A stretch of 64,000 nucleotides of DNA from Prevotella heparinolytica. GTDB lineage: Bacteria; Bacteroidota; Bacteroidia; Bacteroidales; Bacteroidaceae. The DNA lies in the NCBI RefSeq assembly GCF_004342845.1, contig NZ_SLXB01000018.1:1-64000 (forward strand), in the 5' to 3' direction. The notes below the pieces were generated by a model. That model had not been told where the DNA came from and did not search any database. It saw only the letters and a list, made by a program, of their open reading frames with translations. Positions 8,058-58,345 of the stretch are shown here, in pieces; positions within the stretch are counted from its first letter, which is position 1; each line of letters opens with the position of its first letter. The position numbers were made by a program, and so were the translations under genes.

Positions 8058-8130
8058 CAGGCGCAGATTACGCTTACCCTCACGGGTCTCGATTCTCCGA
8101 AACCGTGCTTGTCAGTGAAATCTGCGCCTG
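8058..8130. repeat. 73-bp imperfect palindrome, copy 1
   Basis: Left arm CAGGCGCAGATTA (8058-8070) is complementary to AAATCTGCGCCTG (8118-8130) at 12 of 13 positions; inner arms CACGG (8081-8085) and CCGTG (8103-8107) also pair. The same design recurs at 18795-18868 and 35479-35552. It lies 65 bp after atpK in the 497-bp gap before the glycogen synthase and may end or stabilise the ATPase transcript. Confidence 0.7.
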
Positions 8131-8229
8131 ATGCTGTTTTCATGATCTGCTGCCTTTCTTGTTTCCCCACACTTCGTCCTCCTTATACAGCCACTTCGCC
8201 CTCTTTCTTCCCTCATTTCGTCAGGCTTC

Positions 8230-8286
8230 AAGTGCGGCATTGGGAGTGCTGAAGTGCGGCATCGGGAGTGCTGAAGTGTGGCATCG
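8230..8286 (-). repeat. 22-nt tandem array 1
   Basis: Two complete units (8230-8251 and 8252-8273) differ at one position, and a third begins at 8274 (AAGTGTGGCATCG). Read on the minus strand, each unit begins CACTTCAGCA and ends ATGCCG. Period and anchor match the arrays at 14185, 18583, 39323 and 58214. The surrounding gap 7994-8490 shows no gene. Confidence 0.75.
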
Positions 8287-13429: not shown

Positions 13430-13936
13430 TTAAAGCTTGCTCTTCAGTTCGGCCGTCCAAGCATCGATACGCCCGGCGGTTTTGTGGCTTTCGTTCACTT
13501 CGTCGAGGGCAAGCCCTACGAAAGCGCCGTTCACCACAGCGATGGATGAAGAGAAAGAATAATCGTCCGGACTGACTTTATTGCCCAAGAACGTGCATCC
13601 GGAGTCTTTCAGGTCTTCATAAAGTATTCCGATACCGTCGCAGAATGTGTCGCAGTAGGATTCTGAATCTCCACATCCGAACAGAGCGACAAACTTCATG
13701 GAAAGATCTGCGCTTTTCAGCACTTTCATACCGTCGTACCAGTCGTCTTGCAATTCGCCGTCACCCCACGTCGAAGTTCCCAATACCAATACCTCGTATT
13801 CCTGAACCAGTTCGGCGGTCATCTTGTCCACACTGTGTACGTCAGCGGAGGAAACGCCTAATTTCCCGGCTATCTGAGTAGCCAACTCTTCGCAGGTTCC
13901 GGTGCTGGAACCATAAAAAACACCTGTTTTCTTCAT
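13430..13936 (-). CDS. fldA: flavodoxin
   Basis: 168 aa long-chain flavodoxin. The FMN phosphate loop is [11 protein letters not shown] at residues 9-19; the isoalloxazine-binding loops are [15 protein letters not shown] (about 53) and [16 protein letters not shown] (about 90). It carries single electrons between redox enzymes in place of ferredoxin. The anaerobic ribonucleotide reductase pair lies upstream on the same strand across a 508-bp gap; flavodoxin can reduce NrdG-type activases, so a functional link is plausible. Confidence 0.93.
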
Positions 13937-14184
13937 CGTGAATAAAATAATTAATTTGTCTGCTGCAAAGTAAAGCCTTTGCCGGAGAATGTGAAATACC
14001 TACTTGTGGGGCTTTTCACGGTGTGCAGCTCCCTATTTTTGGTTAGCTTGTTTTGTGTAGAGATGTTTCTCGGCCTACCTATTAATGGGGATGCTGTATG
14101 CCCTTTACACATTTTCGGGTGACGGAGCGCAATGAGGAGGACGCGGGCTGATGGAAATAATTATTGCTGATAACAAGCGACTTA

Positions 14185-14294
14185 CGCTTGTACAAGTGAG
14201 AGGCCACACTTGTACAAGCATCGCTTTTTATTTGTACAAGTGCAGCCTTTCACTTGTAGGAGTGTAAGCTATCACTTGTACAAGTGTGCGTTGT
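14185..14294 (+). repeat. 22-nt tandem array 2, palindromic units
   Basis: Five units of exactly 22 nt (starts 14185, 14207, 14229, 14251, 14273), then a decayed sixth. Best copies begin CACTTGTACAAGTG, a perfect 14-bp palindrome; the last 8 nt vary. The array fills the middle of the 508-bp gap 13937-14444 between nrdG and flavodoxin. The remainder of the gap holds no gene; a possible flavodoxin -7 element (TTACTTTGC, minus strand) lies at 13965-13973. Confidence 0.85.
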
Positions 14295-14444
14295 CGGTAG
14301 GTGCAAGTGTTGAAGAGGTATGGATTGTTCCGCTTTGCCCTTCCTGAAAGCAGAAAATAGACCGAAAATAAACTTAAAGCAAGCCGGGTAAAAAACTTTT
14401 CTGTGAGAATTTAAACAGGAACTAAGGTTATTTCAAGACAGCTT

Positions 14445-14945
14445 CTAAATCTTGGGATTATAGTTGTAGGTCACGGTTTCGTTCCTTTTCAGCGAAGCCT
14501 GCACGTCTATCAGACGCTGGTTGCGGCTTCCCCGGAAGTAGAGCTCTTCATCCCGCAGCTCTTCTTTGAATTTTCCGTCCACCAGCACGTCGATGTATTC
14601 CAGCAGCTTGGCTTGGCGCGGATTGTTCAGCAGCTTTTCAAAAGTATATCCCGTATAGCACCAGATGTTTTTCCGGCTCTGTTTTTTGATGGCGTATGCC
14701 AGTTGGGCGAAGCCTTCGGGCTGAAACATGGGGTCGCCGCCACTGAAGGTGACGTCTGCAAAATTGTCGGCAAGCACTTTTTCCAGAATCTCGTCGACGC
14801 TCATCCGGCGTCCTCGGTTGATGTCCCACGAACCGGGATTGTGGCATCCGGGACATCGGTTGGGGCATCCGGCGGCATAAATGGCGGTCCGGAATCCCGG
14901 ACCGTCCACTGTGGTATCTTCTAATATATCAAGAATGGAAAGCAT
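14445..14945 (-). CDS. nrdG: anaerobic ribonucleotide reductase activating protein
   Basis: 166 aa radical-SAM activase that installs the glycyl radical on NrdD. The [4Fe-4S] cluster motif CxxxCxxC is C27-P-N-R-C31-P-G-C34; the SAM-binding GGDP motif is TFSGGDPMF. Length and position, 8 bp downstream of nrdD, are standard. Confidence 0.95.
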   Translation of the reverse strand: MLSILDILEDTTVDGPGFRTAIYAAGCPNRCPGCHNPGSWDINRGRRMSVDEILEKVLADNFADVTFSGGDPMFQPEGFAQLAYAIKKQSRKNIWCYTGYTFEKLLNNPRQAKLLEYIDVLVDGKFKEELRDEELYFRGSRNQRLIDVQASLKRNETVTYNYNPKI

Positions 14946-17563: not shown

Positions 17564-18535
17564 ATGAATATGGCCAATGTGTCTCTTCCACTCAAGATTG
17601 ATATAGCCGGGGCGTTCTGTGTGCCCTCTGTGCTGAAGGATGCCCGCAAACAGTATTACGAAGGAAAAATGGGCCGGCAAACTTTGCAGGCGGTTGAGGA
17701 CGCGGAAGTGCGTCGTCTCGTGGAGCGTCTGAAGCAGGGAGGCATGAAAGTGGTGTCTGATGGCGGTTTTCGCACCCGCGATTTTTTGGAAAGTTGGGAA
17801 GGCATCCGCTCAAAGGACAATCGTCTTTTCTCCGAAGGCTCTCTTTTGGAGATTACAGGAAGGCTCGGCCTGCTTCGGCATCCCGTTCTGGAGGAATTTG
17901 CCTTTTTGGTGTCCGTAGCGGGAGAGGATGTGATGAAGAAGCAGCACGTTCCTTCGCCGGCCGAAGTCATGACACAGATTCTTCAACGGGTGGAGCGGTC
18001 TCAATTGGAAATGGTATATCCCGACATCCGGCTGCTGACGGACGACATTGCTTCTTGCTACAAAAGTCTGCTCACCTTGCTTTATGATGCCGGTTGCCGC
18101 TATATTCAGTTCGACGGCGTGCATTCCGTCATCATGGAGGAGACCGTCCGGCTGAACAACCGTGTGTTGCGCGAACGGCCTGCCGGAATGTATGTTGCTT
18201 TTCATGCACCCACCGACATGCTGGTGCAGTTGCATGGCGCCGATGCTTATTTTTTGAACTACGACTGCGGAGCCTGCGACCGCAACCGCCTGCTTTGGTT
18301 CATACACGAGAAAGAGGCCGTCTTCGGTTTTGTCCTCTCTCATTATCCGCATGAAGACGAATTGGACGAATTGCAGGCCAAGACGGAAAGCGTGTTGAAT
18401 TATATTCCCCTGAAACGTTTCACATTGTGTCTGCCGGACGCCAATGCGCTTCTTTCCCCGTCGCTTGCCGATGAAGAGAAGCAGTGGGAAACCGTGCGGC
18501 TTGGGATGATAATGGTAGAACGTATTTTTTCTTGA
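17564..18535 (+). CDS. MetE C-terminal-domain-like protein (methyltransferase fold, divergent)
   Basis: 323 aa from ATG 17564 (MNMANVSLPLKIDIAGAF); an upstream in-frame GTG at 17495 gives a non-homologous-looking leader and is less likely. The protein resembles the single-domain, cobalamin-independent methionine-synthase family (PF01717, YxjG-like): MKVVSDGGFRTRDF near the start, YIQFDGVHS in the middle. The usual zinc motif HxC reads HAP here (YVAFHAPTDM), and a later NYDCGACDR has spare cysteines, so one expected ligand is missing. It may be a divergent thiol methyltransferase or no longer catalytic. No neighbour suggests the substrate. Confidence 0.65.
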   Translation: MNMANVSLPLKIDIAGAFCVPSVLKDARKQYYEGKMGRQTLQAVEDAEVRRLVERLKQGGMKVVSDGGFRTRDFLESWEGIRSKDNRLFSEGSLLEITGRLGLLRHPVLEEFAFLVSVAGEDVMKKQHVPSPAEVMTQILQRVERSQLEMVYPDIRLLTDDIASCYKSLLTLLYDAGCRYIQFDGVHSVIMEETVRLNNRVLRERPAGMYVAFHAPTDMLVQLHGADAYFLNYDCGACDRNRLLWFIHEKEAVFGFVLSHYPHEDELDELQAKTESVLNYIPLKRFTLCLPDANALLSPSLADEEKQWETVRLGMIMVERIFS

Positions 18536-18582: not shown

Positions 18583-18780
18583 CACTTCATCGGTCGCAAT
18601 ACCTCACTTCATCGGTCGCAATACCTCACTTCATCGGTCGCAATACCTCACTTCATCGGTCGTAATACCTCACTTTGTCGGTCGTAATCCCACACTTTAC
18701 GGACTTCAATCCCGCACTTTGTTGGCTGTAACCCAGCACTTTACGGCTTGCAATCCCGCACATTTCATCCGTCGCGTTGC
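18583..18780 (+). repeat. 22-nt tandem array 3 (longest, nine units)
   Basis: Nine back-to-back 22-nt units start at 18583 and every 22 nt to 18759. Units 1-3 are identical (CACTTCATCGGTCGCAATAC plus CT); units 4-8 drift but keep CACTT at the start and AAT or AAC-CC near the end; unit 9 is decayed (CACATTTC). Identical units at one end and diverged ones at the other suggest recent expansion. It fills the convergent gap 18536-18924 with the palindrome at 18795-18868; no gene is present there. Confidence 0.92.
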
Positions 18781-18794
18781 GTCATGATGTACAA

Positions 18795-18868
18795 CAGGCG
18801 CAGATTTCGCGAATCGACACGGTTTTTATGAATTGAAAAATCCGTGAAATCCGCGCAATCCGCGCCTG
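18795..18868. repeat. 74-bp imperfect palindrome, copy 2
   Basis: Left arm begins CAGGCGCAGATTTCGCG (18795) and ends at GACACGG; right arm ends CCGCGCCTG (18868). About 22 of 27 arm positions can pair. It lies 14 bp after array 3 and between two convergent gene ends. Same family as 8058-8130 and 35479-35552. Confidence 0.75.
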
Positions 18869-18924: not shown

Positions 18925-20022
18925 TTATTTCAATACCTCGGCCAGTTTTTTCTGAATTTCGTCGCCATGCAGTCCGCGTGCAAGGATGGTTCCTTCACCG
19001 TCAATCAGTACGGTGTGGGGGATGCTGCTTACGGCATAGAGTTGAGCGCCTTCGCAGTTCCAGTATTTCAGGTCGGACATTTGCGGCCAAGTGATGTTCA
19101 GCTTCTTGATAGCGTCTTTCCATGCATCGGCGCTTTGGTCCAAAGACACGCCCACGATTTCGAAGTTCTTCTTCTTGTATTTGGCATAAGCGTCTACCAG
19201 GTTGGGCATTTCGCGGCGGCATGGTCCGCACCAGCTTGCCCAGAAATCAACGAGCACTACTTTGCCTTTGCCCACGTAGTCGGACAGCTTCACGGTTTTG
19301 CCTTCCGGAGTCTGCATTTCGAAGTCCGTAAACTTCTGGCCTACGGCCGTGGCTTTCATTTTCTTTACGTTATTCTTGATTTTGACGATGGTTTCGTCGT
19401 TGTCGAAAGCGGCGGGAATCTGCGGCATAAGCGGGTCAAGCTCTTCCACGCTCATGTAGTAATAGTTCTGCTTGAGCATCTGCACGCCTACGGGGTTGGC
19501 GATATTCTTGTTGATTCCGGCTTTGATGGCTTCTATCATCTTCTCCTCCAAGCTTTCCATCTCCTTGTTGTTGGCTTCGCGCTGTTCATCGGTCAGGGTG
19601 GTGTCCGACATGGATTCGTAGATGGTCATCATCTGTTTGCTCAGCCCGTTGACTTGCGTCCTGATTTCCTGATAGGTGTCATTGTTTACCGTACCCGTGG
19701 CCGAGTTGTTTCCTTCGGACAGCTTGATGTTGATTTTGCCGTTTTCGAGGAAGAAGTCGATGGTTGCTCCTTCTTTGCCTTCTGCCTTATAAGAGATGTA
19801 GCGGTTTACGGCAGTGTCTTGCTTACCTTTGAAGGTAAACGTTCCGCCTTTGATGGTGGTAGAGTCCAGTTTCACGAATTGGCGTCCTTCCACACTTCCC
19901 AGATACACGGTGTCGCCGTCGGCTGCACCATCTACGGTTCCGGTTACGGTGTAACCTTTGTTTTCGCCGTTACAAGCTGCAAACACAGCGGCAGCAGCCA
20001 GTAGATAAGTAAACTTTTTCAT
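18925..20022 (-). CDS. thioredoxin-like lipoprotein (TlpA/ResA type with DUF4369)
   Basis: 365 aa from ATG 20022; a longer frame from 20085 would hide the signal peptide and is rejected. Lipoprotein signal MKKFTYLLAAAAVFAAC with Cys17 as the lipid site, so it is anchored on the periplasmic side. An N-terminal DUF4369-like beta domain (about 25-110) and a helical linker precede the thioredoxin domain, whose active site is W264-C-G-P-C268 with the cis-Pro motif SSIPHTVLID. It is likely a periplasmic disulphide reductase of broad type. It follows rpsP but is separated by a terminator, with its own TATCTTTG -7 element at 20054-20061. Confidence 0.88.
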   Translation of the reverse strand: MKKFTYLLAAAAVFAACNGENKGYTVTGTVDGAADGDTVYLGSVEGRQFVKLDSTTIKGGTFTFKGKQDTAVNRYISYKAEGKEGATIDFFLENGKINIKLSEGNNSATGTVNNDTYQEIRTQVNGLSKQMMTIYESMSDTTLTDEQREANNKEMESLEEKMIEAIKAGINKNIANPVGVQMLKQNYYYMSVEELDPLMPQIPAAFDNDETIVKIKNNVKKMKATAVGQKFTDFEMQTPEGKTVKLSDYVGKGKVVLVDFWASWCGPCRREMPNLVDAYAKYKKKNFEIVGVSLDQSADAWKDAIKKLNITWPQMSDLKYWNCEGAQLYAVSSIPHTVLIDGEGTILARGLHGDEIQKKLAEVLK

Positions 20023-35328: not shown

Positions 35329-35478
35329 AATAGGATTGGGATTATCTGAGTTCCCGCAAAGATAGAAATTTTTACTGATATTTTATCTATATTGTTGTGA
35401 GGGGAAAGAAATTCTGCCTTTTAAATTATACGCAGGAGAGAGGCGGAAACAAAAGTCGGTCGTGCGATGCCATAATGG

Positions 35479-35552
35479 CAGGCGCGGATTTTGCGGCATT
35501 TGACACGGTTTGTTTTGACGAGAGCCGTGAAATATGCGAAATTCCGCGTCTG
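35479..35552. repeat. 74-bp imperfect palindrome, copy 3
   Basis: Left arm starts CAGGCGCGGATTTTGCGG (35479) and runs to GACACGG; right arm runs from GCCGTGAAAT to CCGCGTCTG (35552). Same arm sequences and spacing as copies at 8058 and 18795. It lies 33 bp after the amidase stop (minus strand) and before wzx, so it may end the phage-like module's transcript. Confidence 0.72.
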
Positions 35553-35584
35553 AGGGAGGCCCATGAAGACGTTTTGTTTGTGTT

Positions 35585-39322: not shown

Positions 39323-39476
39323 AGGAGCGTCGTCTGCAAGCCCGCATTTGGCGGCCTGCATGCCCGCACCCGGTTGTCCGCAAGCCCGCACTTCGTCTCC
39401 TGCAAGGCGGCACTTCACTGCTTGCTGAGTGGCACTTTGAGGCCTGCAAGGCGGCACTTCATGGTTGTTGCGCCCT
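39323..39476 (+). repeat. 22-nt tandem array 4
   Basis: Seven 22-nt steps (39323, 39345, 39367, 39389, 39411, 39433, 39455), the first and last partial. Typical units read CACTT-N8-TGCAAGCCCG or CACTT-N8-TGCAAGGCGG. The TGCAA-CCCG end is the same as in array 3 although the two lie 20 kb apart. It sits in the 250-bp gap between the DUF4373 and primase-helicase genes. Confidence 0.85.
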
Positions 39477-58095: not shown

Positions 58096-58213
58096 GGATA
58101 AAATATTCAATTAGTAGTTGTATATTTTGTTTTTTTATGCTATTTCTATGAAAGATTCTTTCAGAAAACTCTTTCGGGGAGTTTGCGTTTTCTTTGCCGT
58201 TTTGTTCTTTCCG

Positions 58214-58345
58214 AAGTGTGGGGATATCTTTCCTAAAGTGTGGGCGCATCTGTCCTGAAATGCAAGCATATACCCTGTAAGGTGTGGGCATATCTGGCTT
58301 GAAGTGTGGGCATGTGCTTCTTAAAGTGCGGGCATAGGTTTTCCA
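58214..58345 (-). repeat. 22-nt tandem array 5
   Basis: Six 22-nt units (starts 58214, 58236, 58258, 58280, 58302, 58324). On the minus strand units begin CACTT, CACCT or CATTT and end ATGCCCA in the best copies. The third unit is the most diverged. It lies between the EPS operon and trpA; its right end overlaps the tail of a possible small ORF (58321-58476). Confidence 0.85.

Follow-up and report, generated by a model that had tools for sequence, protein, structure and literature searches.

Dispersed minisatellites with a period of two helical turns are so far known in one relative of Bacteroides, Porphyromonas gingivalis. BrickBuilt, a minisatellite-MITE of this species, contains 19 copies of a 23-nt unit (AGAYCATARTATCCTCTCRTRTG) together with a leader, a tail and IS5-like inverted repeats; reported BLASTn matches are confined to P. 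gingivalis and homologues to P. gulae (PMC4596501). It is the closest known system to the locus described here, array 3 of a 64,000-nucleotide window, that is, the whole stretch of DNA analysed, taken from the draft assembly of a Bacteroides (G000; 3.64 Mb in 69 contigs) close to B. rodentium and B. muris. Both are intergenic, dispersed and spacerless tandem arrays. In each, a unit spans about two helical turns and combines conserved with variable positions, and the copy number differs between genomes. However, the unit of array 3 measures 22 bp, has by inspection no core in common with the 23-nt consensus, and is accompanied by neither leader, tail nor inverted repeat. Therefore, array 3 resembles the minisatellite part of BrickBuilt and is not a member of that family; pairs of its CACTT motif, moreover, occur 218 times in G000. 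Direct repeats of 22 nt are also mentioned for P. gingivalis W83, without positions or sequences, and these agree with array 3 in unit length and bacterial order (PMC4596501).

Other known systems are more distant. REP/REPIN elements with their RAYT transposases are likewise intergenic, dispersed and species-specific short repeats, whereas array 3 is a direct array devoid of a palindrome. A RAYT/REP identity was rejected, since no Y1_Tnp (PF01797) protein was found in G000 and array 3 does not fold. Plasmid iterons are direct repeats of about 17–22 bp with two-turn spacing that are bound by Rep proteins; in contrast, the arrays considered here number in the hundreds and are chromosomal, they lie beside ordinary metabolic genes, and no initiator is known for them. 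Array 3 is not a CRISPR array, its units being contiguous without unique spacers, nor does it have the hairpin and U-run of an intrinsic terminator, while the neighbouring segment 18795–18868 does fold. A search of plasmids gave no match, and a literature search that excluded most subscription journals found no report of a 22-bp class in Bacteroides. In Bacteroides, the 22-bp step recurs in unrelated unit families across a gut genus, with at least one site at which the array persists although its sequence has changed. The interesting part is this persistence of the step with changing words, which raises a testable question, namely what measures 22 bp in Bacteroides cells. Moreover, the assembly and alignment of intergenic DNA may be misled by 22-bp loci, whose copy number may vary.

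Structure of array 3 and its intergenic gap

Array 3 is a tandem array of eight contiguous 22-bp units in register (Table 1), which start at positions 18583, 18605, 18627, 18649, 18671, 18693, 18715 and 18737, each with CACTT. Identity at a lag of 22 bp reaches 0.75 over 18583–18780 versus 0.266 ± 0.032 (maximum 0.41) in 2000 shuffles, and TRF calls a period of 22 with 5.2 copies and 94% matches at 18583–18697. The first-pass annotation had described units 1–3 as identical and unit 4 as one base different, and the comparison of units bears this out. It had also followed CACTT through unit 8, correctly, and had seen a progressive drift over units 5–9. Instead, the identities between successive neighbours (22, 22, 21, 18, 13, 14 and 14 of 22) describe a step, with a sharp drop between units 5 and 6 and a flat course thereafter, rather than a smooth gradient; units 6 and 8 are alike.

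Table 1. Features in and around array 3 and related arrays elsewhere in the window
Feature	Position	Strand	Remarks
CACTT array related to array 3	8170..8286	.	two opposed halves
Palindromic CACTTGTACAAGTG-type array	14194..14310	.	gap nearly identical in the sister species G336
MetE-like (methionine synthase family) gene	17564..18535	+	ends 47 bp before array 3
Array 3	18583..18758	+	eight 22-bp units, CACTT core, units 1–3 identical
Degenerate ninth unit of array 3	18759..18780	+	begins CACAT, remnant; sister species matches at 17/22
Strong hairpin (CAGGCGCAGATT..CGCGCCTG)	18795..18868	.	fold z −4.75; dispersed element separate from array 3
TlpA/ResA-like thioredoxin-domain gene	18925..20022	−	DUF4369 + AhpC-TSA; converges on array 3
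CACTT array related to array 3	39334..39476	+	
CACTT array related to array 3	58197..58336	−	

The array is located in a gap of 389 bp between two convergent genes, one MetE-like, which gave no Pfam match, and the other encoding a TlpA/ResA-like protein. The RNA fold of array 3 is no better than that of shuffled sequences (z +0.8 on both strands), and a structured RNA was rejected for it. The longest inverted repeat that flanks it measures 8 bp, terminal inverted repeats are absent, and no flank is common to other arrays except for the separate hairpin. This hairpin, which is also present in other gaps, may act as a terminator for the two convergent genes. It belongs to a dispersed element of about 75 bp (GGCGCAGATT..AATCCGCGCC) that is distinct from the arrays, commonly lies 3' of genes, and was seen at 18795–18868, at 8062–8135, in the gap 35329–35584, and in gaps of L060, L074, L079 and L085. 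Rfam matches in this region all stayed below threshold; they fell on the hairpin and 5' of the thioredoxin-like gene.

The 22-bp class across the genome

Array 3 belongs to a set of considerably more than a hundred intergenic arrays with a 22-bp period in G000. The 218 matches to CACTT-N17-CACTT compare with 10 for the reversed control pattern, and the autocorrelation of intergenic DNA peaks at lags of 22, 44, 66 and 88 bp (z 27, 21, 14 and 9). In an 813-kb sample, much of which was picked around CACTT hits, the tandem period of 22 bp clearly outnumbers all others, with 63 clusters and a further 13 at 44 bp; the genome-wide counts of arrays rest on this sample and on the patterns. TRF arrays with a period of about 22 bp in the same sample are intergenic in 85 of 90 cases, lie in genes in 2 and at stretch edges in 3. 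A 50-kb E. coli control yielded no 22-bp period and a single period-21 match.

The arrays are denser in convergent gaps (25 in 15 kb) than in divergent ones (21 in 34 kb), and they keep away from start codons at a median of 320 bp. Their strand shows no bias relative to genes (6 vs 10), and a strand-specific role in mRNA was rejected for this reason. The step of 22 bp is common to several unit families of unrelated sequence, many of which consist of palindromic units; these other families fold well, with a mean z of about −3, whereas the CACTT family averages a z of about 0. Within non-identical units, core columns are 0.92 identical versus 0.57 in variable columns, although arrays were assigned by likeness to a consensus that itself includes the core. 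The order of units is partly common to different arrays (correlation 0.60 vs a null of 0.01 ± 0.095) and, thus, blocks of several units have probably been copied between arrays.

Persistence in related species and recent gain in G000

The gap of array 3 was compared in the 16 Bacteroides species, including G000, in which both genes are adjacent. The best lag is 22 in 13 of these, with p ≤ 0.025 in 12; at the gap occupancy of the sample, the chance of at least 12 of 16 is about 4e-6 if species are independent. The unit word varies in this gap, being CACTTCATCATCCCGAATGCCA in B. rodentium and, for example, GAGCACGCACGTCATCGAGTCC or AACCACACAGCTCAGTAAAGCA in other species. Members of the B. uniformis group have a terminator-like hairpin that forms between one unit and an inverted one. 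The comparison of this gap indicates an old locus that has apparently retained a 22-bp array in much of the genus while its word was replaced. Independent insertion into the same gaps is less likely as the cause; the absence from the sister species of another array of the main type, at L079:17233, which fits a roughly 290-bp insertion accompanied by an imperfect duplication, counts for it. In addition, units resemble each other within species across loci: those of B. rodentium agree with the units of a second B. rodentium gap at 19.3 and 17.8 of 22 positions, versus 15.5 and 13.8 for the orthologous gaps of G000, and G000 units are likewise closer to their own other gap than to the B. rodentium ortholog. 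For two gaps and one species pair, this likeness follows the pattern expected from concerted evolution.

Beyond the genus, the CACTT array was rejected as a feature of the whole order, its three-unit pattern being missing from, or very rare in, the majority of 295 genomes, some of which contain their own 22-bp families. Dispersed palindromic 22-bp families of their own, e.g., ACTTCACCTGCATGAAGTATAC and GTGCYGATAAYTATCGGCACTT, were seen in three other Bacteroidales, G392, G347 and G205 (L139–L148), the last from a different family of the order.

Sequence of the sister species, G336, can be aligned on either side, whereas query positions 594 to 709 are missing from it; otherwise the gap differs between the two species by roughly a fifth, as estimated from the alignment. 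G336 has about three units in place of the eight of array 3, no identical block, and retains the end of the array next to the thioredoxin-like gene, its last unit corresponding to unit 9. Since only about three units are found there, the identical units of array 3 represent a recent gain, which agrees with the recent expansion proposed in the first-pass annotation; most simply, units 1–3 would be younger than the split of G000 and G336. Loss in the sister cannot explain the identity of these units, although gene conversion could. The same nine units in an identical order, the outcome that the annotation had set against its own reading, are not what relatives contain between species. Growth at one end, as it had further proposed, is not supported by 28 family arrays with four or more units: neighbours identical at at least 19 of 22 positions stand at relative positions 0, 0.17 (both in array 3), 0.33, 1.0, 0, 0.8, 0.8, 0, 0.33, 0, 0.5 and 0.6, that is, 5', in the middle or 3' without clear bias. 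These positions are more in keeping with local duplication anywhere along an array than with one-ended addition. Its suggestion of a strain-typing locus is plausible, with one genome per species compared.

Other gaps differ widely between the two species, while the gap at 13936–14445 of the window, which holds the CACTTGTACAAGTG array, is almost identical; this may reflect either a recent transfer or strong conservation.

Proposed turnover and constraint, and competing explanations

The best explanation, to which a probability of about 0.7 is given, is that array 3 is an old intergenic minisatellite locus of a 22-bp class that is spread genome-wide in Bacteroides, with local turnover that lacks polarity, homogenisation within species, and a core that is kept. 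Whole 22-bp units would be duplicated or lost locally, through slippage or unequal recombination, and the unit number would shift accordingly; the identical units 1–3 would represent the latest duplication in the G000 lineage. Within a species, units at unlinked loci would be homogenised as arrays copy from or recombine with each other, or as dispersed copies re-seed them. The core (CCCA/CACTT) would be retained while the other half of the unit drifts. A constraint at the DNA level that is blind to orientation and has two-turn spacing would account for the fixed step, for the conservation of the core and for the absence of RNA structure. That this constraint is exerted by a hypothetical DNA-binding protein aligned every two helical turns is the leading, though tentative, proposal.

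A purely mutational origin is nearly as likely as such a bound-protein platform. The arrays would then be passive minisatellites, produced by a process that favours a 22-bp step, with no selection on core or spacing. Their orientation-blind placement away from gene starts is consistent with this possibility, and so is the fact that unrelated unit families have only the step in common. However, the far better conservation of the core than of the remainder of the unit argues against it, as does a step that outlasts the replacement of sequence at one locus in much of the genus; this account is somewhat doubtful.

A little less probable is that each array arrived within a MITE or a MITE-like block, array 3 being the degraded inside of one. 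Mobility does exist in the class. Arrays of the GACAGACACAAGTG type are carried by a MITE family (L078:7868–8458 in G000:C7, L050, L064, L065, L068, L072 and L081) with the terminal repeats CTGAGTTCGGGATA / TATCCCGAA(C/T)TCAG, a target duplication of 7–8 bp, TCTATTT, at one insertion, and a clean empty site in the sister species. In addition, some arrays like array 3 form part of a dispersed block, about 500 bp long, and the partly common order of units also favours this origin. In contrast, the main CACTT arrays mostly lack common flanks, array 3 shares only the separate hairpin, and an array occupies the same gap in most species. Given the MITE with its empty site and the lack of shared flanks at array 3, mobility occurs in the class and is conjectural for array 3.

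Less likely still is an iteron-like system that organises the chromosome, in which arrays at fixed sites would be bound by a putative chromosomal protein with a sequence preference that changes from species to species, word and protein co-evolving while the two-turn spacing stays fixed. Slightly more improbable is a role of the units in the upstream gene's transcript, as a structured RNA or as a terminator. The higher density in convergent gaps, the hairpin of the B. uniformis group and the well-folding unit families of G000 would suit such a role; nevertheless, neither array 3 nor, on average, its family folds better than chance, the arrays have no preferred strand relative to genes, and a separate hairpin already stands 3' of array 3. 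Finally, a directional, CRISPR-like growth from the 18583 end, the opposite end decaying, is very improbable: array 3 does have identical units at one end and a degenerate unit at the other, the end that the sister species keeps, but in other arrays identical neighbours lie centrally or 3', spacers are lacking, and no enzyme is linked to array 3.

Apart from the 22-bp arrays, longer intergenic arrays with a 23-bp unit were observed at L084:8313–8735 (96–98% matches) and L055:3245–3560 (90–92%), from which the diverged 22-bp arrays differ.
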